64,000 nt of DNA from the NCBI GenBank assembly GCA_003215655.1, contig QCKB01000001.1, positions 1-64,000 of the forward strand, given 5' to 3'. The notes beneath the pieces are model-generated. The model worked only from the letters and a program-made list of their open reading frames with translations, did no database searches and was not told the origin of the DNA. Made by a program: the position numbers and the translations under genes. Shown here piece by piece: positions 41,680-55,154 of the stretch. The stretch is from Prochlorococcus sp. AG-409-J16 (GTDB lineage: Bacteria; Cyanobacteriota; Cyanobacteriia; PCC-6307; Cyanobiaceae). The stretch's first letter is position 1. Every line of letters starts with the position of its first letter.

Positions 41680-42693
41680 TTAACCTATTTCCTCTGCTAA
41701 ATGGAGATTTAGTTGTTGTATTAGCTCAGGTCCAGTTTTAATCATTTTTCCTTCGAGTTGTGCTGATTTTAGAAGTATAGGTTCTGTAGATGTAGATATA
41801 ATTATCCCTAGTTTTTTTTCTATGCCGATAACACAACCTGGTTTTGAAGAATATTCTGATGTATCATTTATCAATAGTGAAGCCTTATATGTTAATTGAT
41901 TTTTTATAGCGTTGATAAGTGGCTCTGTATTAATAATTTTAAGTCTTTTATTCCTTAAAAAGGTATATGCGTGAGGATATAAGGCTTTTACTTGCCTATG
42001 GATTTTGATACATTCTTGGTTCCAATCAATTATATAATCTTCCTTTTTTATCTGTCTAGCATATGTGATTTGATCGTTTTTATAATCCTGTTTTTTTGTA
42101 TTAAGGTCTGTTAATTTAAAGGTATTAGTATCATATTTTTCAAGGATTTTAATTAAATTTAAAATCTCATCAGCTGTAATATTGGCTAGTTTAGTAGATA
42201 ATTCATATGAATTATCATGTAGTGAAATTCCAATTTTCTTTTGTGTAAGTACTGGGCCTGTATCAAGCCCTTCTTCCATAAGCATTATAGCTACCCCTGT
42301 ATAACTATCTCCACTAATTATGCTCCATTGAATTGGTCCAGCTCCTCTCCATCTGGGCAATATTGATGCATGTCCATTCCAGCAACCAAAAATAGGATTT
42401 TCAATTAAGGATAGAGGTAGAATTTGTCCAAAGGCTACTACGATTGAAATGTCAGCTTTCAATTCCATTATTAATTTTTGATTTTCTTTGTCTGTTCGAA
42501 TGTTTTTTGGAGTAATAACATTTAGACCTAATTCATTAGCTCTTTGTTTAATAGGGGAGGGAATTATTTCTCTTCCTCTACCTCTTTTTTTATCTGGTTG
42601 TGTTACAACTGCAACAATATCTAGACCTGCTAGATATAAAGAATTAAGTGTTGGTATTGCAAATTCTGGAGTTCCCCAAAATATGACCTTCAT
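41680..42693 (-). CDS. fmt: Methionyl-tRNA formyltransferase
   Basis: Formylates Met-tRNAfMet for initiation. Start at ATG 42693 (MKVIFWGTPEFAIP), which overlaps the tldE stop by ATGA; 11 further in-frame residues upstream are not family-like. The N-terminal formyltransferase domain contains HASILPRWRGAGPIQWSI and DTGPVL; the C-terminal domain covers about 215-330. About 337 residues, normal size. It closes a tldD-tldE-fmt unit. Confidence 0.95.
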   Translation of the reverse strand: MKVIFWGTPEFAIPTLNSLYLAGLDIVAVVTQPDKKRGRGREIIPSPIKQRANELGLNVITPKNIRTDKENQKLIMELKADISIVVAFGQILPLSLIENPIFGCWNGHASILPRWRGAGPIQWSIISGDSYTGVAIMLMEEGLDTGPVLTQKKIGISLHDNSYELSTKLANITADEILNLIKILEKYDTNTFKLTDLNTKKQDYKNDQITYARQIKKEDYIIDWNQECIKIHRQVKALYPHAYTFLRNKRLKIINTEPLINAIKNQLTYKASLLINDTSEYSSKPGCVIGIEKKLGIIISTSTEPILLKSAQLEGKMIKTGPELIQQLNLHLAEEIG

Positions 42694-44075
42694 GCTTCGC
42701 CTGTAATGCTTAGATTGTCTACCCATATGTGTGGGCTTACTCCTCCGGGTGTGATTATTCCTTCCTCTTCTATAGAAACAATATTCATGAGCAGATCTTT
42801 TATATCTCCAGCTACTGTTGCAGCTTCTATTGACGTTTTATCACCTTGATTAATTAGATGACCATCAAATGGTAAAGAAAAACTACCTTGACTTGCTTTT
42901 ACACCTGCATGCAATGCAGTTAGATTCTCTATATACACATATTTATCTTTCATATCTTTATGATTAAAGTTACTTTTACTTAATCGATATTTGTCACTTC
43001 TACTTACTACAAACCAGTCTGGACCAACAGATACTTTTGCTCCTAGGCCTGCATGACCAGTAGGCTTGACACCAAATTGCTTAGCTGTTGATTCAGAGTG
43101 TAGGAAATTTACTAGTTTTCCTTCTTTTATCAAGCTCAGATTTTTAGTTGGTGTTCCCTCTCCATCGAAGGCTGAGGCTCCAATATTCGATTTATGGAGA
43201 CCATTATCATCAAGATTTAGACAAGGAACAGATATTAAAGTGTTTATGCTATCTTTTTGACTAAGGCTTATTCCATCTAGTACAGATCTAGCATTAAACA
43301 TACTACTAAATGAACCTAATAAATCTAGAAATGCATCAGGTGAAAAGCATATAAGGTAACGACCAGTGTCTATAGGCTGATAATTTAGATGAGATATTGT
43401 TTTATCTGAAGCCTCTTCAATACAGGATTCTACATCTATATCCTTAGCACCATAAGCAAGCCTTACAGCACCACTGCTTCTAGGCTTTCTTCCTGATTCT
43501 TCGGCTCTTGCGTAAAGATATAGACTTGCATGAGTACTTCTCATTTGTCTTAATGCACCATTACTATTTATATATATACGTTCTGATATACCTTCGGCTA
43601 TTCCATTATATGGAACTGATTTAATTGAATTATGTTTACCTATCAAATCAGCCTCAGCTTCCTTTAAAACACTATAAAGTGTCTTTATACCAAGAGGATT
43701 AATAATAGGTCTTTTTAGTTCAGGAAGAGGATCTTTTGACAGAGGTGAGAAATCTGGTATGTCATTTGGGTTGCCTAAATTACTAGCATCCTTAGCTCCC
43801 TCAATAGCTTTAAATAATCCATTATCAGTAAGGTCAGAGGTGCTTGTTATTCCTATAAGCCCTGATTCATTCCACACTCTTATTGTTATTGAATTTCTCT
43901 GTGCCGACTTCATTTGCTTAGCTTCTCCTTTATCAACCTGTACAGAGGAGTCAATACTTGAAGATGCTCCAAGATCCCATTTATTGATGTTTAGTTTCTT
44001 TGTGTACAAATGCAACCTGTCTCTAAGTACAACTTCATCAAGAAAGTTATTTTGATTAGTAGATTGATTGTTCAT
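42690..44075 (-). CDS. tldE: TldE/PmbA-family metalloprotease subunit
   Basis: Partner subunit of the TldD-TldE protease, 461 residues. The paired PmbA-type sequence shows SSSIDSSVQVDKGEAKQM, GAVRLAYGAKDID, AFDGEGTPTKNLSLIKEGKLV and GVSPHIWVDNLSITGEA at the end. The subunit lacks the HExxxH zinc site of TldD, as expected. The stop of tldD overlaps its start region closely, so the two are co-translated. In other bacteria the complex unwinds and cleaves peptides such as microcin B17 precursors; the substrate here is unknown. Confidence 0.9.
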   Translation of the reverse strand: MNNQSTNQNNFLDEVVLRDRLHLYTKKLNINKWDLGASSSIDSSVQVDKGEAKQMKSAQRNSITIRVWNESGLIGITSTSDLTDNGLFKAIEGAKDASNLGNPNDIPDFSPLSKDPLPELKRPIINPLGIKTLYSVLKEAEADLIGKHNSIKSVPYNGIAEGISERIYINSNGALRQMRSTHASLYLYARAEESGRKPRSSGAVRLAYGAKDIDVESCIEEASDKTISHLNYQPIDTGRYLICFSPDAFLDLLGSFSSMFNARSVLDGISLSQKDSINTLISVPCLNLDDNGLHKSNIGASAFDGEGTPTKNLSLIKEGKLVNFLHSESTAKQFGVKPTGHAGLGAKVSVGPDWFVVSRSDKYRLSKSNFNHKDMKDKYVYIENLTALHAGVKASQGSFSLPFDGHLINQGDKTSIEAATVAGDIKDLLMNIVSIEEEGIITPGGVSPHIWVDNLSITGEA

Positions 44076-45485
44076 TTATCTTCCTCCTACTGTTATTGAG
44101 TCTACCTTTATATGTGGTTGACCTACTGTTACATTTACGCTTCCACTAATTGAGCCACAGAAGCCTGCAGCTAAATCTAAATCATCTGCACACATTGATA
44201 TCCTAGGCATAACTTCTTTTGCCTCTCCTATCAGTGTTGCGCCTTTTACTGGTTTTGTAAGCTTACCATTTTTTATAATATAACCTTCCTCAACAGAAAA
44301 ATTAAATTGGCCTGTTGGCCCAACACTACCGCCGCCCATTGATTTACAATACAATCCATCTTCAATCGATAATATTAAATCTTCTGGCTTGTTAGTTCCT
44401 GCATCTATATATGTATTTCGCATCCTACTAGCTGCCGCAAATGCATAACTTTGTCTTCTGCCGCTTCCTGTCCGAATGTGTCCTGTACGTAATTCACCAG
44501 CACGGTCACTCAAAAAACATTTAAGTATTCCTTTTTCTATAAGGACTGTTTTTTTAGATTCCATTCCCTCATCATCCATAGAAATTGAACCAAAAGCTCC
44601 TGGTGTTATACCTTCGTCAATTGCAGTTACTGAAGGATGAGCGATTTGCTTGCCAATCATTTCTGAAAATGGTGTTGTGCCTCTTTCAATTTGAGTTGTC
44701 TCAAGCAAATGTCCACATGCTTCATGAAAAATGACTCCTCCAAATCGATTAGCTAGGACGACAGGCATTTGCCCTGCATCTACATAGTCTGCATAAAGCA
44801 TTGAAGAGGCACTATCACAGACTTCTTGGGCGCTGTTCTTTTCATCCCAATTGATAAGGTCATCGGGAGTATCTGAAGAACCATATCTTCTTCCAATACT
44901 GGTTCTATGCTCACCGTCTGCTGCTAATACATTTAGACCTGTTGATTGGTGAAGCCTTATATCATGAGCAAATGTTCCATCACTTCCAGCAACAATTACA
45001 TCTTGCCAAGATCGAGAATAGCTTCCTCTCCTAACCTGTAGGTGCTTCCCTAATACTTCTAATGATGAAGTGCCAGATAATAGTTTCTGTGTGGCTTCTT
45101 TTGTCTTAGGACAGTCTGATAACCAATTCCTTTTAGCATTACCAAAATCTCTTAATGAATTAAGGCCTTGGAATTTCGATCTATCTAATGCACTTACATT
45201 TAGTCCGAGCATTGCAAGAGCTTGTTCAAGTGCATCATTGAGACCTGATTCTGTAAGGTTATTCGTACTAACAAACCCATCTCGAAAGCCCTTAAATACC
45301 CTGATACCTGCCCCTATTCCAAAGGAAGGGCTAACATTAGTTATTATATTTTGTTCTGCAAGAATACTTATGTGATCAGTTTTTTCTAAGAATATTTCGA
45401 CAAAATCGGCGCCTGAGCTACAACCTTTGGCTAACAATAATTCAAGGTGTGGTTTCCATTTATCGTCAAATGTACTTGTATCCAT
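44076..45485 (-). CDS. tldD: Metalloprotease TldD
   Basis: Catalytic subunit of the TldD-TldE protease. The zinc motif HEACGH is in GGVIFHEACGHLLETT; the glycine-rich, substrate-gating region GRRYGSSDTP and the C-terminal SGSVNVTVGQPHIKVDSITVGGR are typical. The ATG at 45485 (MDTSTFDDKW, 469 residues) is chosen; an in-frame TTG 36 nt upstream adds 12 residues. It abuts tldE directly (no gap). No recognisable peptide-precursor gene is adjacent. Confidence 0.92.
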   Translation of the reverse strand: MDTSTFDDKWKPHLELLLAKGCSSGADFVEIFLEKTDHISILAEQNIITNVSPSFGIGAGIRVFKGFRDGFVSTNNLTESGLNDALEQALAMLGLNVSALDRSKFQGLNSLRDFGNAKRNWLSDCPKTKEATQKLLSGTSSLEVLGKHLQVRRGSYSRSWQDVIVAGSDGTFAHDIRLHQSTGLNVLAADGEHRTSIGRRYGSSDTPDDLINWDEKNSAQEVCDSASSMLYADYVDAGQMPVVLANRFGGVIFHEACGHLLETTQIERGTTPFSEMIGKQIAHPSVTAIDEGITPGAFGSISMDDEGMESKKTVLIEKGILKCFLSDRAGELRTGHIRTGSGRRQSYAFAAASRMRNTYIDAGTNKPEDLILSIEDGLYCKSMGGGSVGPTGQFNFSVEEGYIIKNGKLTKPVKGATLIGEAKEVMPRISMCADDLDLAAGFCGSISGSVNVTVGQPHIKVDSITVGGR

Positions 45486-45721
45486 TATTTTATAGCTTGT
45501 GGGGTTTGTAGTTGTGATCAATTAGTTAGTTAGTTAAGAGGTAATGTGTGAACTATTTAATTTTTAAATTAATAGTTCAAGTTTATAGGCGTAATTTTAG
45601 CCTAATGACTTTAATGTCATGTCTGCTTATGAAGGTCTAGTACCATCTTATTCTTTCCAGGTCCAGTTGAGTTGATGCATTAAGGCCTGTTTCCGGATTT
45701 AGAGCAAATTTTTCAGTAGAT

Positions 45722-46195
45722 TTAGTTTGAGCCCAGCCACTTCTGGCCATTTAGGCGTTGTAAGAGTCTGGAAACCAGTAGAGCTAGTGTTGTTTTTCTC
45801 TCATCTATAAGAAATGACTCTAGTGTGCTTGGTTGACTTTCTGATTCAGCAAGCGCAATAGTTTTATCTGAACTGATTGAATCCTTGTTAAAACAAAGCC
45901 AAAACTGCCTACCAGAATCAATTTTGCCTATAACCATCCAGCAATTCCCTCCAACAACTGGTCTTTCTCCTTGGCGAAGTTCGATAAATGCCAACTTCCT
46001 TCCACAAGCATCTAGGGCCTTTTTTATTCTCGGTATAAATTCATCATTAATAAACACATCAAAGGGCTTGTCCTCAGGTTTTTGGGGAACGGGCCTTGAG
46101 AGGTCTTCTGACTTAGGCGTTTTATTATCTAAATTTGTATTCAATTCATTGCTTTCAGTTTTAGGTTGTTTGGGCGCATTTGTTGGTTCATTCAC
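45722..46195 (-). CDS. Cyanobacterial conserved protein, DUF2996-like
   Basis: A 157-residue protein, GTG start. Residues 1-45 are low-complexity, rich in Pro, Asn, Lys and Glu. Residues 45-157 form a compact domain (FDVFINDEFIPRIKKALDAC, RQGERPVVGGNCWMVIG, FWLCFNKDSIS, LLVSRLLQRLNGQKWLGSN). It resembles the DUF2996 family of cyanobacteria and plastids, an assignment from memory. No membrane segment or signal is visible. It has 236 nt to tldD downstream and 68 nt to the next gene upstream, so it is probably transcribed alone. Confidence 0.6.
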   Translation of the reverse strand: MNEPTNAPKQPKTESNELNTNLDNKTPKSEDLSRPVPQKPEDKPFDVFINDEFIPRIKKALDACGRKLAFIELRQGERPVVGGNCWMVIGKIDSGRQFWLCFNKDSISSDKTIALAESESQPSTLESFLIDERKTTLALLVSRLLQRLNGQKWLGSN

Positions 46196-46263
46196 CTGAT
46201 TAGTGCCTTTTTTATAAATTTAAACAGGTTTGATCACTTTATTATAAATGTTAGTAATAGAAG

Positions 46264-46800
46264 TTACCAATCTTCGCTCTTAATGTCTTGCCAATCATCA
46301 TCAACTGCTTCTGATCTGATTTCATCTGTAGATTCGTTAATATCTTGTTTCTCATCGAAACTATAGTCATCGTATTGATTAGAGATATTTTTCCCTTGTT
46401 TAATTATTCTATACCTTACTGCTATGGTTGGCGATGGATCGCGAATATCTCTTTCTGGAGTGATAACTGTTTGATCATTTGAACTAACCAAATCATCAAG
46501 GTTATCTGATTGCAATTCTTCCTCTTCAAAATCTTGAAACGAATCAGTTGACGAAGTAACTGATTTTTTTACCGTTCTTCTATAGCTAAATTGGGCTAAG
46601 TTTGTTAATCCCGAACTCAGTGACAAGATAAATGCTGAGCTACTACTTACTGCGACCCATGAGCCAATACTAAGCTCTGGAGTCTCCCATAAAAGTATTC
46701 TTAACTTTAGAGGTTCCTTTATATTTAGAAACGAAATAAATATCAAAAGTGCTAATGGTGCTAGAGCAGGAATAAGGAGTATTTTTCTCAAGGTTTTCAT
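46264..46800 (-). CDS. Membrane protein with long acidic tail, unknown function
   Basis: A 178-residue protein. A basic N-terminus (KTLRK) leads to a first helix (about 8-27), and a second hydrophobic segment covers about 45-67. From about 80 on it is hydrophilic and strongly acidic (EEEELQSDNLDDL, near 95-107), ending DDDWQDIKSEDW. I do not recognise the family. The ATG at 46800 is 2 nt after the ubiX-like stop, so it is likely co-transcribed with it. The acidic tail would face one side of the membrane and could bind cations or partners; this is speculation. Confidence 0.55.
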   Translation of the reverse strand: MKTLRKILLIPALAPLALLIFISFLNIKEPLKLRILLWETPELSIGSWVAVSSSSAFILSLSSGLTNLAQFSYRRTVKKSVTSSTDSFQDFEEEELQSDNLDDLVSSNDQTVITPERDIRDPSPTIAVRYRIIKQGKNISNQYDDYSFDEKQDINESTDEIRSEAVDDDWQDIKSEDW

Positions 46801-46802
46801 GC

Positions 46803-47411
46803 TTATGCTTCTTTCCACCTATTTAAGTTGCCTATCTCCTCATCAAAAAGATCGAATGTTCTTATTACTATAAAATCAATCATATCATCGATATTTGTTG
46901 GTTTGGTATACCAACCTGGCAACGGAGGACATATACAAGCGCCAGCTTCAGCTAGGTTTGTCAAATTACGTAAATGTATCAAGCTCCATGGCATCTCTCT
47001 TGGAGCAATGACAAGTGTTCTTTTCTCCTTTAAATGAACATCTGCGCATCGCTCTATAAGATTTAAGGAAAAGCCAGATGATAATCTTCCAACAGTTCCC
47101 ATAGAACAAGGAATGATAATCATACCAGCGGTTTTAAAACTTCCACTTGCAATAGATGCCGAATTGTCATCCCATCTATGACAAGTCAAATTTTCTGTTT
47201 CTATATTGAGGTATTCTTTCCAGAACTTCTTTTGATTATCTGGATTTAATGGAATATTTACACCATTTTCTGCATTCCATACCTTATACGCACCTTTACT
47301 AAGTATAAGGTGAACTTCCTTTCCTTTCCTTAGTAGTAATTCTATTGACCTTGTAGCCAATGGTTGGGCTGATGCACCACTTACTCCTAATACATATGGG
47401 TAGTTACTCAT
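46803..47411 (-). CDS. ubiX: Flavin prenyltransferase UbiX-type
   Basis: Attaches dimethylallyl to FMN to make the prenylated flavin used by UbiD decarboxylases. The 202 residues start YVLGVSGASAQPLATRSIELL, the FMN-binding element, and show IIPCSMGTVGRLSSG, RTLVIAPREMPWSLIHLRN and ICPPLPGWYTKP. No UbiD is within the window. It lies between the membrane-protein gene (2 nt) and the Zam-like gene (6 nt), suggesting one transcript. Confidence 0.9.
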   Translation of the reverse strand: MSNYPYVLGVSGASAQPLATRSIELLLRKGKEVHLILSKGAYKVWNAENGVNIPLNPDNQKKFWKEYLNIETENLTCHRWDDNSASIASGSFKTAGMIIIPCSMGTVGRLSSGFSLNLIERCADVHLKEKRTLVIAPREMPWSLIHLRNLTNLAEAGACICPPLPGWYTKPTNIDDMIDFIVIRTFDLFDEEIGNLNRWKEA

Positions 47412-47417
47412 AGTTAT

Positions 47418-49748
47418 TTAGTTTTGTTCTAAATTGATTTTCGGATCTACACTTTCTTCACTATTGTCATTAGAAGGTTTATCTTCTACAGAATCTATAT
47501 TAAGCTCAAGATCTATTTGATTGCGTAGGACATCTACCTTTAATATTCTAACCATTACTTTTTCTCCTAATTGATAGACTCTTCTGTTCTTTCTTCCAAC
47601 TAATCGATTTTGCCTTGAGCGATATTCATACCAGTCATCATTTAGTGAACTTACATGAACTAATCCTTCAACATTAGCTGGTGGGATTTCAACAAAAAAA
47701 CCATAGCTTTGTACGCCACTTATAACACCTTCGGTTTCTTTTCCGATATAAGGTTCAGCTTCTCTAGCTTGTGCAATCGATATAATATCGTTTCTAACTT
47801 CTGAAGATTTTCTACGCTCTTCATTTAAATGATGTATTAGGCTATTTTTAAATAAATCACTTAATGATGCTAGTATGCTATCTTTAAATATTGGCCAATC
47901 TACATCTTCATTTGTTCCTTTTTTGCCGAGATCTATCTTAGCTTTTGTACGATTATTAGCTTTGTTTTTACCTTCATTTAACAAACTTACTATAACATGT
48001 TGATTTAGTATATCTATATAGTGATTTCCAGGACAACACCAGGGTGTTTGTGAAGGTATAATAGGTTCTTCTGATTTAAGTTCTTCATTGAAATTCCTAT
48101 TTTTTTCTCTGCTGAATTTATGCAAACATATTAAAGGGTCTGGAATAGCATGCTTTAATTGTTTGTCGAGAACTCTACGTTTGTCAGAATCCTTAAATGC
48201 TTTGGTAAGGTCAGATGCACTAGGACTGCCTCCTTCATCCAGTTGAATTGGTAACTCAAGAGAAACCACATTGCGAGCAACATCATTTAATGAGGCGATA
48301 TCAATTTCTTGAGGTTCAACTGATACTCCTTCAAGTTTATAATCGTTAGCATGAATATTCCAACAAATATTTGCTGATCTTATAAATGAAGATAATATAG
48401 AATTTGGATCTGTATTATCTATTGGTAATGACCATTGATTTCTTGTATTATCTGCTTCTTGCCAGGCAATCTCGCTAAGTGAATCTATTTTTAATATAGG
48501 AAGGTTTAATTCTATTTTTCCATTTTTCTTTTCATATTCATTTAGTAAATTAGATGCAAATATAATTGATTGAACCTGTGATATCTGATCTTTATAAGGC
48601 TTTAGTTTTATTGGGATTGTCCTTGCTTTCGGCTTTCTAGTTGCTATTGCTTCCATTATTTCAGGGTTTATTTGAGCTACTGGTTTAATTTTTGTGAGAC
48701 TGAATTGCCAATCTGTGACTTGGCCCTCTGCATTAATATCCATTAAAAGACTTACTGCATCATTTTGCTTTCCAATGACAAACTTAGCATCATTTAATAA
48801 GCTATTTGTTAATAATGGCTTCCATACTTGACCTATACAGTGAGCTTCAGCCCTTTCCTTCAGAAATAAATCTAATGAATTACCAATAACAATTCTTTCT
48901 GCAATCGATGGTGAATGAATCCATACTCTAAATCCACCAGAGTAACTCTCAATGTTTATCGCTGGCAGAGGTGGAGCATCCTTATTTTGCCAACTACTAA
49001 GCAAAAGGACGTCTTTGTCTGTTAGATCTATCCTGTTTTTTGATGAGGGTGTTTTTGGTGAGACCTTTGGTGGAGAGTCTGAATCTTGTAGATTATTTTT
49101 TGCAACGACTATTTCTCTATCACCTTTTGCTCCGCCAAATAACGTTAACGCTCTTTCAACGTGACCATGAGCTCCATATTGTGCAATTGGATAGCTATCA
49201 ATTTTAATTTCGACAACATTTTTATCGTCACCTTCAGCTATAAAGCTTTTATCAGTATCAGGCAAATTAATTGTTGCAAGAAGCCTGTCATCCAAAGGTA
49301 CTGCAATTATATTATCTTCATATGATTCTACGATTCCAATTATATTTCTTGAATTTCTATTTAAAATACATTGAACCACACCTTCTGGTGATCGACGACG
49401 TATACCATCCCTAGTTATTCTTACCAGTACACGATCTCCATTCCATGCATGATTTAAATTATGATCTCTAATATAAATATCCTCTCCACCATCATCTCTA
49501 AGCGCAAAACAATAACCTTTACTACTACATCTTAATCTTGCTTTTATAAGAGATTGATCAAAAGAATAATTTAATTGACCTTCATTATTTCTTTCAATAA
49601 TACCTAATTTAATTAATCCCTCTAATGCAATTGAAAGTTGACTTTTTTCAGATTTTTTACTTAGCTTTAGGATCTTCTCCAGTACCTTCTTATCTGTTGT
49701 TTGCCCTTCACACAAACTATCAATTATCTTGGTGGCTGTGAACTTCAT
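47418..49748 (-). CDS. Zam/RNase II-like protein with degenerate RNB active site
   Basis: A 776-residue protein with the layout of RNase II/R: N-terminal winged-helix and cold-shock-like parts (about 1-150), an RNB-like core (about 235-600) and an S1 domain (about 670-755; GVISGVQSYGFFVEI, EGLVHVSSL). The core follows the RNB pattern (FRVWIHSPSIAERIVIGNSLDLFLKERAEAHC), but the catalytic aspartate cluster is replaced by NKDAPPLPA (255-263), and the IRRYPDL-type motif reads CPGNHYIDIL (about 572-581) without its arginines. It resembles the cyanobacterial Zam (acetazolamide resistance) family. It probably binds RNA without exonuclease activity. Its catalysis should not be assumed. Confidence 0.75.
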   Translation of the reverse strand: MKFTATKIIDSLCEGQTTDKKVLEKILKLSKKSEKSQLSIALEGLIKLGIIERNNEGQLNYSFDQSLIKARLRCSSKGYCFALRDDGGEDIYIRDHNLNHAWNGDRVLVRITRDGIRRRSPEGVVQCILNRNSRNIIGIVESYEDNIIAVPLDDRLLATINLPDTDKSFIAEGDDKNVVEIKIDSYPIAQYGAHGHVERALTLFGGAKGDREIVVAKNNLQDSDSPPKVSPKTPSSKNRIDLTDKDVLLLSSWQNKDAPPLPAINIESYSGGFRVWIHSPSIAERIVIGNSLDLFLKERAEAHCIGQVWKPLLTNSLLNDAKFVIGKQNDAVSLLMDINAEGQVTDWQFSLTKIKPVAQINPEIMEAIATRKPKARTIPIKLKPYKDQISQVQSIIFASNLLNEYEKKNGKIELNLPILKIDSLSEIAWQEADNTRNQWSLPIDNTDPNSILSSFIRSANICWNIHANDYKLEGVSVEPQEIDIASLNDVARNVVSLELPIQLDEGGSPSASDLTKAFKDSDKRRVLDKQLKHAIPDPLICLHKFSREKNRNFNEELKSEEPIIPSQTPWCCPGNHYIDILNQHVIVSLLNEGKNKANNRTKAKIDLGKKGTNEDVDWPIFKDSILASLSDLFKNSLIHHLNEERRKSSEVRNDIISIAQAREAEPYIGKETEGVISGVQSYGFFVEIPPANVEGLVHVSSLNDDWYEYRSRQNRLVGRKNRRVYQLGEKVMVRILKVDVLRNQIDLELNIDSVEDKPSNDNSEESVDPKINLEQN

Positions 49749-49864
49749 GGTATTTTATTTAGATAGTGGTTGTGGAGAAGGATTTAATTTATTAATTGGG
49801 ACTAGTTAAAGCCTATTTAGTACATACTACAGACATTATAGGTCTAGCAGCTTTAAGCTAATTT

Positions 49865-50155
49865 TTAATCATCATTTTCATTAGTATCATCAGGCCACAA
49901 AAGTCTTGTACCTATAACTATAAAACCTAATGAGGCTACCAACTGAATAGAGTCTCTTGGAATAAGGTTCGCTAATGATCCGCCAGTTATCGCTCCAAGA
50001 AGGCTTGCTAATACAAGTGCCGATGATGAACCGATAAACACCGCTAATGGCCTTTTAGTGGTTCCACTTATGGCGACTGTTGCGAGCTGAGTCTTGTCAC
50101 CTAATTCAGCAAGAAAAATGGTGGCGAAGGTTGAAACGACTAAAGGGAGGGACAT
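49865..50155 (-). CDS. UPF0016 (GDT1) half-size cation transporter, second gene
   Basis: A 96-residue membrane protein with three hydrophobic segments and one ExGDK(S/T) motif (LAELGDKTQLAT). Full-length members carry two such repeats; here each gene codes for one. The start is ATG 50155 (MSLPLVVSTF), 2 nt after the upstream half's stop; the open frame continues 57 nt upstream but that part overlaps the neighbour. Known UPF0016 proteins export Mn2+ (Mnx) or Ca2+; half-size pairs are thought to act as heterodimers. The role here is likely manganese handling for photosystem II, by inference. Confidence 0.85.
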   Translation of the reverse strand: MSLPLVVSTFATIFLAELGDKTQLATVAISGTTKRPLAVFIGSSSALVLASLLGAITGGSLANLIPRDSIQLVASLGFIVIGTRLLWPDDTNENDD

Positions 50156-50157
50156 TT

Positions 50158-50526
50158 TTATACGATGTGTTTGGAGGCAATTAGCGATTGTGAAGCCTGA
50201 ATTCCTATCCAAACTCCAAGACCAACCATTAAGACACCAGCTAACTTTTCAAACCTTTCAGGTGGAAGGATACTAGCCAAGGTTCGACCTACTAATACAC
50301 CTACAAGACTAGAACAAATAAGCGCAATAGCAGCGCCAAGGAATACTAACCCTGGCTTTCCTGACTGAGCAGATAAGAGCAATGTCGCAATCTGGGTTTT
50401 ATCACCAATTTCGGCAATAAAAACTGTACTGAATGTAGTGAGGAAAACAGCTAGAAAGCCTTCATTATCTTTATTTATATTGGTGTTCTCGTTGCCTAAC
50501 GCATCTCTACCAGTGTTTTTATCCAT
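50158..50526 (-). CDS. UPF0016 (GDT1) half-size cation transporter, first gene
   Basis: A 122-residue membrane protein, the partner of the next gene. A hydrophilic N-terminus (about 1-22) precedes three hydrophobic segments, and the signature FIAEIGDKTQIAT matches the UPF0016 motif. The two products are similar but not identical (AEIGDKTQIAT versus AELGDKTQLAT), so they look like an old tandem duplication. Its ATG lies inside the 3' end of the cysteine-cluster gene (8 nt overlap). Likely forms one membrane transporter with its neighbour. Confidence 0.85.
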   Translation of the reverse strand: MDKNTGRDALGNENTNINKDNEGFLAVFLTTFSTVFIAEIGDKTQIATLLLSAQSGKPGLVFLGAAIALICSSLVGVLVGRTLASILPPERFEKLAGVLMVGLGVWIGIQASQSLIASKHIV

Positions 50527-50914
50527 GGTCTTTTATACCTTTACGTATAGCTTTAGTGAATTTTCTCATAACTAAACTTCTACCCCCATAAACAGATCGT
50601 ATCTGTTGCTTGCAGCATTTAATAGCAAAATCATCGATATCAGTAATTGGAATACTAAACAGGCTCCCTATACAAGAGACCCTGCAAAAGTCTGGTCTTT
50701 CATTGTAAATCCGACAAGTTCTACTTCCGCTATCGAAATTTCTGCACCATCCATTGGGTAAAACCATGTCCATAAAAACCTTTTGTTGATCTGCATTGAG
50801 AGCTTCCAGGGCTTCAGTTCTTTCTATCGGGTCTAACTTGCAACAAGCACCGCAATTAGGTATGCATTGCCATTTAGTAGCCTTCGAACCTTTTCTTATG
50901 CTGTGACAACCCAT
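50519..50914 (-). CDS. YkgJ-family cysteine-cluster protein
   Basis: A 131-residue protein with the CxxxCxxCC-type signature CIPNCGACCKLDP and later cysteines in WCRNFDSGSRTCRIYNERPDFCRVSC. This is the zinc- or Fe-S-binding YkgJ family of unknown function. ATG at 50914 is used; a GTG codon directly before it is the only alternative. It overlaps the first UPF0016 gene by 8 nt, which suggests a metal-related function shared with the transporter, though the family gives no proof. Confidence 0.82.
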   Translation of the reverse strand: MGCHSIRKGSKATKWQCIPNCGACCKLDPIERTEALEALNADQQKVFMDMVLPNGWCRNFDSGSRTCRIYNERPDFCRVSCIGSLFSIPITDIDDFAIKCCKQQIRSVYGGRSLVMRKFTKAIRKGIKDHG

Positions 50915-51021
50915 CACAGAGAAATGTATGAAAGGGACGTTATTGGTCTTTTTCAGCGTAGTGTGTAATAGGCAAAATCATTGCCCAGGGTAAAATTTCT
51001 CACTATTACTTCTAGCTTCAA

Positions 51022-51105
51022 ATGGGTAACCTCTTTCCTCTTGCTGTTCTAGCTCTAGCTGGCCCAGCAATCATCGCTCTCGTTTACTACAGAAAGGAGT
51101 TTTGA
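51022..51105 (+). CDS. psb30: Photosystem II subunit Psb30 (Ycf12)
   Basis: A 27-residue single-helix protein, MGNLFPLAVLALAGPAIIAL followed by VYYRKEF. The LAGP turn in the helix and the basic end match Psb30/Ycf12, a small peripheral subunit of photosystem II. It lies in the divergent gap between the YkgJ gene and the ClC gene on the plus strand, with only 11 nt to the ClC stop on the other strand. The short length makes the assignment depend on the LAGP motif and position. A different single-helix photosystem peptide is the alternative. Confidence 0.72.
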   Translation: MGNLFPLAVLALAGPAIIALVYYRKEF

Positions 51106-51116
51106 GACCTAAGACC

Positions 51117-52454
51117 TTAATTAACTAAAGCTCTCGCTTTTGGGTATGGCAGCTCCTTTATCAGCCTTGATGTCAAGGTTGACAGAGAAGCTGCCATGAC
51201 AATCACAGGTAGAAGGTCATTTCCAGCTATGGACCAGGCAATTAAAGACGATATCAATGGCAATTGAGTAAAGCCTCCCAATCCAGCTGAAACTCCAATA
51301 ACCAAACCTAGTTGGGCATTAACACCCAACATAGAACTTATCAACATGCCTATGACTCCGCCGAAGGCCATGGCGGGTTCAAAGATTCCAGGAATGAATC
51401 CAGTCAACATAACTATCAAAGGAGCAACAAACCTCATAAAAGCGATCCAGATCAACACGAAAATTCCTTTTATTGTCTCTGAGGATATGTTCACTAATGA
51501 AATGGAATCTGTTACTAATTTATTTGTAAGCAATAGACCATTACCAATAGAGGCTCCAAAACTAATAAAGGTAAAGATAGTAATAATTAATGCTAGTAAT
51601 AATGTAGTTTCTTTAGGTTTTGTTTGCATAGAAGCTGATACTAAACCAGATGCCTTATTAAATATAATATGAAAATATGCTCCACTTAATCCAATGATTA
51701 TTGCAATTGGTATGACTATTGTAAATTGCTCAACATACGGATTGATTATGTTAATTGAAATCTCTAGTAAGTTTCTAGAACTAAAAATATTTATCAATTG
51801 ATTCACAAAAACAGAAGCAAGTAAGACTATAACGATAGTTTTAACTTTTAAATGATTATACAAATACTCAAACAAAAAGATTGGTCCTAGTATTGGGATG
51901 TTAAAAGCTGCTGATATCGATATACAAGAGGCTATAGAAATTAAGCTATCGTAATTAAATGTGGAATACAATATTTTAAAACGACTCTTTAGATATATTG
52001 CCAATGTCGATCCGGTGTATAGATAAAGTATTTCATTGCCTATTGGAAGAAAAAATATAATCGCAATAATTGAAATTAAATAGTATAAAAAGAAGGAATA
52101 TATTATAGATTCTTTATTCTCGTCAGCTAAATCATTTATTAGGAAATATGATTTCCTGTTTAAAAAAGGATTGATTTTTTTATGACTTAATTTGCTTATC
52201 AATATAAATATGATAAACGGTGATAAAGCTATAATAACAAATATTATAGCTGAATGAGTTATATCTATATTAACTAAGTTCTCTTGAAATTTATAAGTAT
52301 ATAGAGTTGCTAACTTTATTGGTAAAAGAATAATTCCTATAGATAATGATAGAAAAATAAGTGCTAGTATATGCTTGAAATCTTCAAATAAATATAGCTT
52401 AGATAGAGATTTTTTAAGACTAAATTTATATAATCCTGTAATTCTTTTATTCAT
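51117..52454 (-). CDS. ClC-type chloride channel/transporter, divergent
   Basis: A 445-residue polytopic membrane protein. ClC features are AAFNIPILGPIFLFEYL (about 182-198), GIFEPAMAFGGVIG (about 356-369) and GLGGFTQLPL near the end. The usual GREGP filter segment reads GNEIL (139-143), keeping the glutamate but losing the flanking residues, and the GSGIP-type segment is hardly recognisable. The first 30 residues are basic. Its ATG overlaps the recJ stop by ATGA. It probably moves chloride or another anion, possibly as a proton exchanger; this is uncertain given the altered motif. Confidence 0.75.
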   Translation of the reverse strand: MNKRITGLYKFSLKKSLSKLYLFEDFKHILALIFLSLSIGIILLPIKLATLYTYKFQENLVNIDITHSAIIFVIIALSPFIIFILISKLSHKKINPFLNRKSYFLINDLADENKESIIYSFFLYYLISIIAIIFFLPIGNEILYLYTGSTLAIYLKSRFKILYSTFNYDSLISIASCISISAAFNIPILGPIFLFEYLYNHLKVKTIVIVLLASVFVNQLINIFSSRNLLEISINIINPYVEQFTIVIPIAIIIGLSGAYFHIIFNKASGLVSASMQTKPKETTLLLALIITIFTFISFGASIGNGLLLTNKLVTDSISLVNISSETIKGIFVLIWIAFMRFVAPLIVMLTGFIPGIFEPAMAFGGVIGMLISSMLGVNAQLGLVIGVSAGLGGFTQLPLISSLIAWSIAGNDLLPVIVMAASLSTLTSRLIKELPYPKARALVN

Positions 52455-54346
52455 GGAAGTATGCCTAATGCTATACCTGAAATTTGTATTAGTTTGCTTA
52501 CATATTGATTATTAAGATGCTTGTCAGATATGTTGATCATGCGGTCATCATCAATTTTTGCTTGAATTGACTGACCTTTTTGATTGGTTATATCTATTGT
52601 AGATTCATTAATAATTTTACATTTATATTTCCTACCCTGTTGAAAAATGATAGCATAATCTTGATAATCCCTAATAGCTTTAATTGTTAATTGTATTTTT
52701 TCCTCACCATTCCAATGATTTGTATCCAAATGATAAACTATATCAACTAATTTAGATGTTAGTAACTTATTATTCCACCCCCAAATGATTGCTTCTTGTC
52801 TTATATTATGATTTAGTAAGTCTAATTTTAGGTGAATACCTTTAAGCAACCTTTGATTTTTTATTAAACACTTTCTTGATGAAAATAATGGTTTTTTATT
52901 TCCAATTCCGAAAGGCTCCAGTTGGTTCAGTTCTTTTATAAATAATCTATTTATATCACTAAATCTTAAATTTGCATCTGGTTTTATGTTTACCTTATTA
53001 TTATGTAGTTGATAATGCTTTTGTGCTAGTTTATTCAACCTTCTATGTAATTCTATAACATTATCTGCTTTAATAGAAAATCCGGCTGCTGCTGGATGGC
53101 CTCCGTATTTCTCTAAAATATCAGCACATTGATCGAGAGCATTGATAACAGAAAAACCTTCAGGACCTCTCACAGAAGCTCGGAAGAAACCATCCTTATC
53201 TCCTGCAAGCATGGCTACTGGTCTATTAAATTTTTGCATTATTCTAGAAGCTACAATTCCTATCACGCCTTGATGCCAATGGCTTTGGGCCAGTAAAAAG
53301 AATGATTGACTTTCATCTCCTGAATCTATTAAGGCTAATGACTCAGCTTCAATGGCATCACAAAGCTCTTGTCTCTGACGATTTAGGATTTCACATTCTC
53401 TGGCCATCTGCAAAGCTTGATCAAAATCCATTGATATTAGTAACCTTATAATTAATTTTGGTTCTCCAATCCTTCCTACAGCGTTAATTTTAGGGGCTAA
53501 TTTGAATCCTATATCCTCTGCCTTGATAACCCTATTATCTATACCTGAAAGTTTCTGTAAAGCTTTAATACCTTGGCAATTCGTCTTATGAAGACGTTTT
53601 ATTCCTTTCTTAAGTATCGATCTATTTGCTCCATTGAGTGGAGCCATGTCAGCAATCGTTCCTATACAAAATAAATCTAATGCATTAGATAGTGCTTGAG
53701 GGGATTTTCGCCTTTCTGCTAATTTTGATGCCAATATATATGCTATTCCAACACCGGCCAAGCATTTATATGGTGAGTCATTTGGTATAGTACTTGGGTG
53801 TATTAATGCCAGAACTTCTGGTGTTTTTACTGAAACTGTATGATGATCAGTTAAGATAACATCCATTCCTAATTTATTTGTTTCTTTTAAGGCCTCAATT
53901 GCAGAAATACCGTTATCGACGGTTATAATTAAATTTATTTTTTGTGAATATATTTTATTTACAATATCTACACTCAATCCATATCCATCCTTTTTTCGAT
54001 CTGGTATTTCTGCTATTGGTTTTGCACCTAATATGTTGAGAGTAGACATAAGAAGAGCTGTGCTCGTCATTCCATCTGCGTCATAATCTCCGCAAATTGC
54101 GAGTTGTTCTCCTCTTTCACATGCTATCTCTAGTCTAGCTACTGCTTTTTCTAGATATGGATAGTGTTCGAATGGATTCGGTGGGTCTTTTGGATTAATG
54201 AGTTCCTGTACTTCCTCAGGACTTGCTAACCCTCTTCGAGCAAGTAATGCTCTTATAGGAAAGGAAAGGTTGATTTCTGCTAAGCAATTTGAATCTACCG
54301 GAGCTGGCAGATGCCATTCTAAATCTGATGAAAAACTAGAATTCAA
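52451..54346 (-). CDS. recJ: Single-stranded-DNA exonuclease RecJ
   Basis: 5'-3' exonuclease for recombination and mismatch repair. The DHH phosphoesterase motifs are visible: CGDYDADGMTSTALLM (motif I), DNGISAIEAL, TDHHTVS (motif III) and VGIAYILASKLAE; the DHHA1 motif GGHPAAAGFSI follows. The 631 residues fit RecJ. The start is TTG at 54346, supported by GGGAGG about 9 nt upstream, as no ATG lies at a suitable position. Confidence 0.94.
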   Translation of the reverse strand: MNSSFSSDLEWHLPAPVDSNCLAEINLSFPIRALLARRGLASPEEVQELINPKDPPNPFEHYPYLEKAVARLEIACERGEQLAICGDYDADGMTSTALLMSTLNILGAKPIAEIPDRKKDGYGLSVDIVNKIYSQKINLIITVDNGISAIEALKETNKLGMDVILTDHHTVSVKTPEVLALIHPSTIPNDSPYKCLAGVGIAYILASKLAERRKSPQALSNALDLFCIGTIADMAPLNGANRSILKKGIKRLHKTNCQGIKALQKLSGIDNRVIKAEDIGFKLAPKINAVGRIGEPKLIIRLLISMDFDQALQMARECEILNRQRQELCDAIEAESLALIDSGDESQSFFLLAQSHWHQGVIGIVASRIMQKFNRPVAMLAGDKDGFFRASVRGPEGFSVINALDQCADILEKYGGHPAAAGFSIKADNVIELHRRLNKLAQKHYQLHNNKVNIKPDANLRFSDINRLFIKELNQLEPFGIGNKKPLFSSRKCLIKNQRLLKGIHLKLDLLNHNIRQEAIIWGWNNKLLTSKLVDIVYHLDTNHWNGEEKIQLTIKAIRDYQDYAIIFQQGRKYKCKIINESTIDITNQKGQSIQAKIDDDRMINISDKHLNNQYVSKLIQISGIALGILP

Positions 54347-54410
54347 TGATTTCTACCTCCCTTGTTATTTTATGAATATTTATTATTAATCAACATTTTT
54401 ATAGAAAATT

Positions 54411-55154
54411 ATGACAACTCTTCAGGCAGTTATATGGGATGTAGATGGAACACTTGCAGATACGGAAATGAAAGGGCATAGAATTGCTTTCAATTATGCA
54501 TTTAAGAAATGTGGCATCAATTGGAATTGGGATGAAGAGACATATGCTCAATTATTAAAAATACAAGGAGGAAAAAGTAGAATTATTAAATATGGATTAG
54601 ATCAGAATTTTCATATTTCAAGTGAAAAATTAAGTAAGCTATTGGAATTAAAAAAGAACCATTATACTGAATTAATATTGTCAGGAAAGGTTTCTCTAAG
54701 GCTTGGTGTGAAGCGTTTATTAAAGGAAATTAATGCAGCTGGAATCGATCAATGGATTGTGACAACGAGCAGTTATGACTCTTTGCTTCCTCTAATTAAT
54801 TCCAATTTTCCTGTCAATACCTCACCTTTCAATGGCTTTATAACATCAGAAGATGTAATTAATCCAAAACCTCATCCAGAAGCATACCTAAAAGCATGTC
54901 AATCTTGTGGAGTACCTACTTCAAGAATTCTGGTTATCGAAGACTCAGTATGGGGACTACAGTCTGCAAACTCTGCTGGATTAAGTGTCCTAGTGACGCT
55001 TTCTCCTTGGATAAAAGAAATAAGTGCCATTCATAGTTCAGCAAAGTCTGTTGTAACCCATTTAGGAGATTCCCATGAAAGTTGTAAGGTTTTTAAAGGA
55101 CCTCCTTGCCCTAAAGGGCAAATTACGCTGAAGTATCTTCAGTCCTTAATTTAG
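54411..55154 (+). CDS. HAD-superfamily hydrolase, CbbY/phosphoglycolate-phosphatase-like
   Basis: A 247-residue HAD phosphatase. Motif I is DVDGTLADTE (9-18), motif II is VTTSS, motif III NPKPHPEAYLKA, and motif IV IEDSVWGLQSANSAG. The CbbY type acts on xylulose or ribulose phosphates or phosphoglycolate in the Calvin-cycle context. Cap domain about 18-90. It is divergent from recJ across 64 nt. The substrate cannot be named from sequence. Confidence 0.85.
   Translation: MTTLQAVIWDVDGTLADTEMKGHRIAFNYAFKKCGINWNWDEETYAQLLKIQGGKSRIIKYGLDQNFHISSEKLSKLLELKKNHYTELILSGKVSLRLGVKRLLKEINAAGIDQWIVTTSSYDSLLPLINSNFPVNTSPFNGFITSEDVINPKPHPEAYLKACQSCGVPTSRILVIEDSVWGLQSANSAGLSVLVTLSPWIKEISAIHSSAKSVVTHLGDSHESCKVFKGPPCPKGQITLKYLQSLI

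Follow-up and report, generated by a model that had tools for sequence, protein, structure and literature searches.

The cyanobacterial protein Zam has been described as an RNase R-type protein with a degenerate catalytic site and two redox-active cysteines in its first cold-shock domain, CSD1 (Thomas et al. 2022, PMC9145284). According to that paper, deletion of zam has phenotypes in strain PCC 7002, acetazolamide resistance being the trait recorded for Zam on deletion, and replacement of either cysteine by serine phenocopies the deletion, with phycocyanin lowered and the photosystem ratios altered. In vitro, the authors saw neither nuclease activity nor binding to RNA for the purified PCC 7002 protein with the substrates they used; aggregation qualifies this result, and the missing RNA binding is given as 'data not shown'. 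The same authors find the RNA-contact residues of CSD1 conserved in Zam, and propose a redox-gated action of Zam on RNase E (PMC9145284). Moreover, a review (PMC10989914) states that Alr1240, a protein of Anabaena PCC 7120, binds RNase E and raises its cleavage, and that it degrades unstructured RNA like RNase II.

We identified a member of this family in the window, the whole stretch of 64,000 nucleotides analysed here from Prochlorococcus sp. AG-409-J16 (GC of the window 36%; genome 1.84 Mb). The zam ORF (47418..49748, minus strand) starts with ATG and encodes 776 aa, for which both the Pfam matches and the AlphaFold model give the architecture typical of Zam, CSD1-CSD2-RNB-S1. CSD1 (OB_RNB, aa 71-126) lies at 49371..49538, the RNB domain, devoid of its catalytic residues (aa 239-591), at 47976..49034 and the S1 domain (aa 667-748) at 47505..47750, all on the minus strand; CSD1 and S1 are the most conserved regions of the protein. 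All Pfam domain matches exceed their cut-offs (RNB 111.5 bits, cut-off 29.3; OB_RNB 62.5; S1 51; CSD2 35.6), which bears out the original prediction that the RNB-fold pattern and an S1 domain are kept. Rfam gave 0 matches on positions 42000-55000.

The best NCBIfam model was that of RNase R, at 182 bits far under its 598-bit cut-off. The AlphaFold model (mean pLDDT 90.2, pTM 0.90) was built on 69 aligned sequences, the alignment having taken 68 of the 80 fetched relatives: eight longer than 830 aa and two with N in their sequence were dropped, and L105 and L119, which run off the contig end, were omitted by choice. Its top Foldseek match was RNase R (8cdu, E 1.1e-44). VIA-align superposed it on 8cdu_C with Z 35.4 and an rmsd of 4.7 over 607 residues, so that it has the RNB fold of the RNase R/II exoribonucleases, and on the yeast pseudonuclease Ssd1 (7am1_A) with Z 29.5 and an rmsd of 4.2 over 604. 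Since the best sequence and fold matches are to RNase R, and since this genome encodes its RNase II-type enzyme elsewhere, as a protein of 445 aa, the label 'RNase II-like' given in the original prediction is better replaced by RNase R-like. The full-length matches of the window protein are Zam loci, Rnb being a different gene in the same genome, and in a tree with E. coli RNase R as outgroup and no Rnb rows the window protein falls among the picocyanobacterial Zams. Thus, the domains, the scoring of the catalytic site, the cysteine pair and the tree identify the ORF as encoding Zam, an RNase R-type pseudonuclease, in agreement with the family that had been proposed. Since a protein of this type with a degenerate site and both CSD1 cysteines belongs to a family already described, this observation is mostly known already.

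To score the site we used the RNase II numbering, D201/D207/D209/D210, Y253 and R500; the E. coli RNase II sequence carries D, D, D, D, Y, E and R at the site positions. In the window Zam, the four aspartate positions read S/D/L/P in one alignment and S/P/L/P in another, Y253 is replaced by C and R500 by N. The set of four acids and the equivalents of Tyr253 and Arg500 are therefore absent, confirming that the catalytic residues have been lost, and the RNB active site is degenerate as in other Zams. The former catalytic loop, SSWQNKDAPPLPA (aa 251-263), lies at 48960..48998, the codon of Cys304, at the Tyr253 position, at 48837..48839, and PWCCPGNHYIDI (aa 569-580), which replaces the SPIRRYPDL arginine motif, at 48009..48044, all on the minus strand. 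Both motifs on which the original prediction rested are present in the translation as quoted, the one in place of the catalytic aspartates within SSWQNKDAPPLPA and the degenerate IRRYPDL-type motif, WCCPGNHYIDIL, at aa 570-581.

The loss of the complete four-acid set extends to all Zams aligned. Identical sequences and duplicates of the window protein were removed before counting. The first alignment held 144 distinct Zams, 121 at ≥34.5% identity to the window protein (the close Zams) and 23 others, of which 45 have no acid at the site, 63 one, 31 two, five three and none four. A second set of 81 more distant sequences, overlapping the 23 others, gave none in 4, one in 38, two in 34, three in 5 and four in 0, so that four acids occur in 0 of 202 Zams (121 + 81 sequences). 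The same alignment procedure was applied to 36 cyanobacterial Rnb proteins as a control. One of them is truncated; the 35 that cover the site all carry the four acids (D-E-D-D in 30, D-D-D-D in 5), and Tyr and Arg are present in 36 of 36. The Rnb of the window's own genome (L157, G000:C1:66062-67396, outside the window), a separate RNase II-type enzyme of 445 aa about 17 kb from zam, reads DDDD under the same procedure and keeps Y and R. Since the controls retain all four acids, the loss of the site in Zam is not due to chance. Note that Pfam shows an RNB domain only in this Rnb, and that most other cyanobacterial Rnb frames are of about 650-700 aa.

Three Asp survive in the best-preserved Zams, Asp207 being absent from L187, L190 and L232 and Asp201 from L144, and in these the RRYxDL motif is present. 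The Zam tree was a quick search under LG+G4, and since it came with warnings that long branches, the picocyanobacterial one included, may meet, we used it coarsely only. The Asp209-Asp210 pair occurs in 14 of its 86 rows (E. coli RNase R included) and needs 2 changes, Asp207 in 2 rows with 2 changes and Asp201 in 8 rows with 8 changes, counts that do not tell gain from loss. Our results suggest that the site eroded stepwise from an active ancestor, on a tree too rough to order the steps. The fungal Dis3L2/Ssd1 proteins are reported to have followed a similar course, with at least four losses of the site (PMC8097288), and in Ssd1 the RNA site is said to have shifted to the outer surface (PMC8934651).

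The two cysteines are found in the L12 loop of CSD1, as in other Zams. From its place in this loop, Cys74 (codon 49527..49529, minus strand) was taken as the equivalent of the redox Cys73 of PCC 7002 Zam, and Cys80 (codon 49509..49511, minus strand) was taken as that of the redox Cys79, both roles being those described by Thomas et al. (PMC9145284). Each position is Cys in 120 of the 121 close and in 79 of the 81 other Zams. C74 is replaced by S in L019 and L023, C80 by S in L009 and by G in L029, and L142 has lost both, so the pair is close to invariant, not fully so. L142 belongs to genus f16, in whose Zam (L142/L245 in genome G039; L264:1098-3157 in G270) the two CSD1 cysteines and a large part of the RNB domain are missing. 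In G270, the second genome of this genus with the same cysteine loss, the protein is split over two overlapping frames. In f16 the redox switch may have been lost naturally, or decay of the gene may have begun.

Next to zam, ubiX (46803..47411, minus strand), encoding a flavin prenyltransferase (NCBIfam TIGR00421 161 bits, cut-off 108.9), starts 6 nt downstream. It is followed by a third gene (46264..46818, minus strand), whose product has a hydrophobic N-terminus and an acidic tail. This gene has no family match in Pfam or NCBIfam; a profile comparison shows it to be homologous to the one that follows ubiX in Nostocaceae (probability 95.7, E 1.1e-8; reversed sequences 1.5). ubiX lies downstream of zam on the same strand in 74 of 80 loci, with a median gap of 19 nt (75 loci have at least 700 nt downstream). 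Of 60 more distant loci, 34 show this arrangement, among these all 20 from Nostocaceae. Zam, ubiX and the membrane-type third gene thus form a unit that is conserved from Nostocaceae to Prochlorococcus. A literature search that covered titles and the starts of abstracts only found no account of a zam-ubiX unit, which is no proof of absence. Upstream of zam are two GDT1-type cation antiporter genes (Pfam GDT1; 49865-50212 and 50158-50526, minus strand), a pair found in 77 of 80 Cyanobiaceae-type loci. Here the antiporter is encoded as two half-size genes that overlap by the ORF calls (49865-50526). Further downstream of zam, on the same strand, positions 42690-46195 hold genes for a DUF2996 protein and two TldD/PmbA-like proteins, the first two of which are also downstream of zam in 67 and 63 of 80 picocyanobacterial loci, respectively. 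UbiX supplies the cofactor that a decarboxylation in quinone synthesis requires, and since it serves this pathway, a link of the zam unit to electron transport is plausible.

The original study on Alr1240 and RNase E is reportedly that of Zhou et al. 2020. In PCC 7120, alr1240, alr1241 and alr1242 are described as a single transcription unit (PMC10287535), and alr1242 as encoding a hypothetical protein of 221 aa (PMC2823733). All six Nostocaceae zam loci inspected have zam, ubiX and then a gene of 219-233 aa, of exactly 221 in L209; such neighbours are absent, within the short flanks covered, at six Nostocaceae Rnb loci. Since this gene order fits the alr1240 unit and the Rnb loci do not, our results support that Alr1240 is Zam, by synteny and the matching length of the third gene rather than by its own sequence. 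Thomas et al. also equate the two, with no reasons given in the part of their text consulted (PMC9145284); the idea that they had mixed up Alr1240, called RNase II-like in the review, and Zam was dropped, as the synteny fits Zam. If Alr1240 is Zam, the RNA degradation reported for it contradicts an inactive site, for the Nostocaceae members at least. In Nostocaceae, where the Zams share about 32-34% identity with the window protein, Tyr253, Arg500 and one or two of the acids are mostly retained (pattern xVEN). The window Zam lacks all of these; since they are kept in Nostocaceae, a weak or contaminating nuclease activity is possible in that family. Note that RNase E is encoded in the window's genome.

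Zam is present in 217 of 217 Nostocaceae genomes and, across the phylum, in 140 of 292; of the genomes without a match, those listed (all but 132) belong to other classes. Among 40 relatives, 36 gave a match; since that of G026 is to its Rnb, Zam is present in 35. The five without a Zam match are four incomplete genomes and G026, which is in 1150 contigs. In the window's genome there are just two phycobiliprotein genes, adjacent to each other, along with genes for several Pcb/CP43-like antenna proteins. In seven related genomes, phycobiliprotein matches numbered 1 each in three of one genus, 2 each in three others and 13 in a Synechococcus-type control, and Zam was present in all seven. Since Zam persists in genomes that have nearly lost their phycobilisomes, the phycocyanin phenotype is not its core role.

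Is the dead domain maintained? Median dN/dS, obtained from 31 disjoint close pairs (usable: 30 for the cold-shock domains, 31 for S1, 30 for RNB), was 0.05 for CSD1+2, 0.025 for S1 and 0.136 for RNB. The RNB domain is therefore under purifying selection, with the cold-shock and S1 domains far more constrained. Moreover, 18 RNB positions are conserved in ≥95% of the 121 picocyanobacterial Zams and in <30% of the 23 others, figures that shared descent inflates. Among them (Zam numbering) are W253, P259, W276, E284, R285, W309, R371, K372, R376, K383, K386, W570 and N582. Seven of these (W253, P259, E284, R285, W309, W570 and N582) reach 96-100% in the 121 and 0-22% in the 23 others. R371, K372 and R376, at 98% each in the 121 against 26%, 0% and 4% in the 23, belong to RKPKAR (aa 371-376; 48621..48638, minus strand), a basic motif that hardly varies in picocyanobacterial Zam. 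Of the 121 close Zams, 98 have Cys where RNase II has Tyr253, and C571 and C572, both at the site of the former arginine motif, are present in 78 and 83 of them.

The reading we favour, with a probability of about 0.55, is that Zam is a pseudonuclease acting through its two cold-shock domains and S1 as a non-catalytic, redox-coupled cofactor of RNase E. Zam would dock on RNase E, and perhaps on RNA, through CSD1, CSD2 and S1; once docked, it would raise RNase E cleavage, and a C74-C80 disulfide in CSD1 would couple this action to the redox state of photosynthesis. As for the RNB domain, it would be retained as a selected scaffold that has gained new conserved residues in picocyanobacteria. Against this reading stand the reported lack of RNA binding by purified PCC 7002 Zam, the RNA degradation ascribed to Alr1240, the distance between the window protein and the Zams of Anabaena's family, in which RNase E binding was measured, and the few lineages that keep Zam without the cysteine pair. 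The redox activity, the need for the cysteines and the binding to RNase E are taken from relatives, and by analogy the window protein may do the same and be an RNA-binding regulator.

Zam could instead be a pure protein scaffold, recruiting or activating RNase E by protein contacts alone, without RNA, the RNB shell being a docking frame. This is possible but on balance doubtful. It would account for the reported failure of the purified PCC 7002 protein to bind RNA (PMC9145284), and for an RNB domain still under selection, in which 18 residues, many of them aromatic or basic, have newly become near-invariant. It fits less well with CSD1 and S1 being the most conserved parts of Zam, and with the CSD1 RNA-contact residues that Thomas et al. 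describe as conserved. The picocyanobacterial residues might also mean that the RNB pocket has been rebuilt for a new ligand or as a second redox site, with Cys304, Cys571 and Cys572 around the old active site, as would suit the frequency of these cysteines and the seven residues near-invariant in the 121 and rare elsewhere. However, none of the three cysteines is invariant and descent within a single family inflates the conservation, so we regard a rebuilt pocket of this kind as decidedly unlikely.

Retention of exonuclease activity by a shifted or reduced acidic set is far less credible still. L187, L190, L232 and L144 keep up to three of the four Asp together with the Arg and, mostly, the Tyr, and Alr1240 is said to degrade RNA (PMC10989914), but the lineage of the window protein lacks the loop acids, Y253 and R500, no acid of the catalytic loop is conserved among the 121 closest Zams, and Thomas et al. 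saw no nuclease activity (PMC9145284). A shifted but complete acidic cluster, named in the original prediction as what would overturn it, is thus unsupported by the sequences. Acids conserved at 92-100% are found elsewhere in aa 206-665, for example D241, E284, D293, E301, E426, D489 and E498, and some of them may lie near the pocket. As for a decaying relic without function, the weaker constraint on RNB than on CSD and S1 would be expected, but the dN/dS values rule it out for practical purposes, and it would have to explain the retention of Zam in every Nostocaceae genome and in small Prochlorococcus-type genomes, as well as the deletion phenotypes in PCC 7002 (PMC9145284).

We also consider, as a rather improbable reading, that Zam is a bacterial counterpart of Ssd1. 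An RNase R would have gained a redox-controlled role directed at RNase E within an ancient zam-ubiX-membrane gene unit, passed through a bifunctional stage, as Alr1240 may show, and lost catalysis stepwise. Picocyanobacteria would then have rebuilt the dead RNB pocket with new conserved residues, cysteines among them, that read the photosynthetic redox or quinone state without phycobilisomes.

If the cofactor reading holds, RNA decay would be linked through Zam to the redox state of photosynthesis. Identifying Alr1240 as Zam joins two literatures, on a redox-regulated protein and on a partner of RNase E, and exposes a testable contradiction, a class that lacks the four catalytic acids yet is reported to degrade RNA. 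The persistence of Zam in Prochlorococcus-type genomes, where phycobilisome genes are nearly gone, implies that the phenotype studied so far is secondary. Beyond what Thomas et al. described, we add here the gene unit, the evidence on Alr1240, the exceptions to the cysteine pair, the selection on RNB with its 18 residues, the retention of Zam where phycobilisomes are nearly lost and the suggested stepwise erosion of the site.

Among known systems, yeast Ssd1 and the fungal Dis3L2 pseudonucleases resemble Zam in being RNase II family proteins that repeatedly lost the site and kept the cold-shock domains. Unlike Zam, Ssd1 has a separate origin, from Dis3L2 (PMC8097288); the resemblance observed between it and the window protein is one of fold. 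The abstracts on the fungal proteins mention no redox cysteine pair, and RNA sites are known for Ssd1, not for Zam. RNase R and RNase II share fold and architecture with the window Zam, which differs from them in lacking the catalytic acids, Tyr253 and Arg500. Alr1240, a Zam ortholog by synteny, differs from the window protein in its reported degradation of unstructured RNA (PMC10989914). The Zam proteins Sll1910 of Synechocystis PCC 6803 and A1543 of PCC 7002 share with the window Zam the domain order, the degenerate RNB site, the two CSD1 cysteines and a single copy beside an active Rnb. In contrast to these, the picocyanobacterial protein also lacks Tyr253 and Arg500 and carries a conserved residue set of its own, and a genome with only two phycobiliprotein genes leaves no room for the phycocyanin phenotype as its role.
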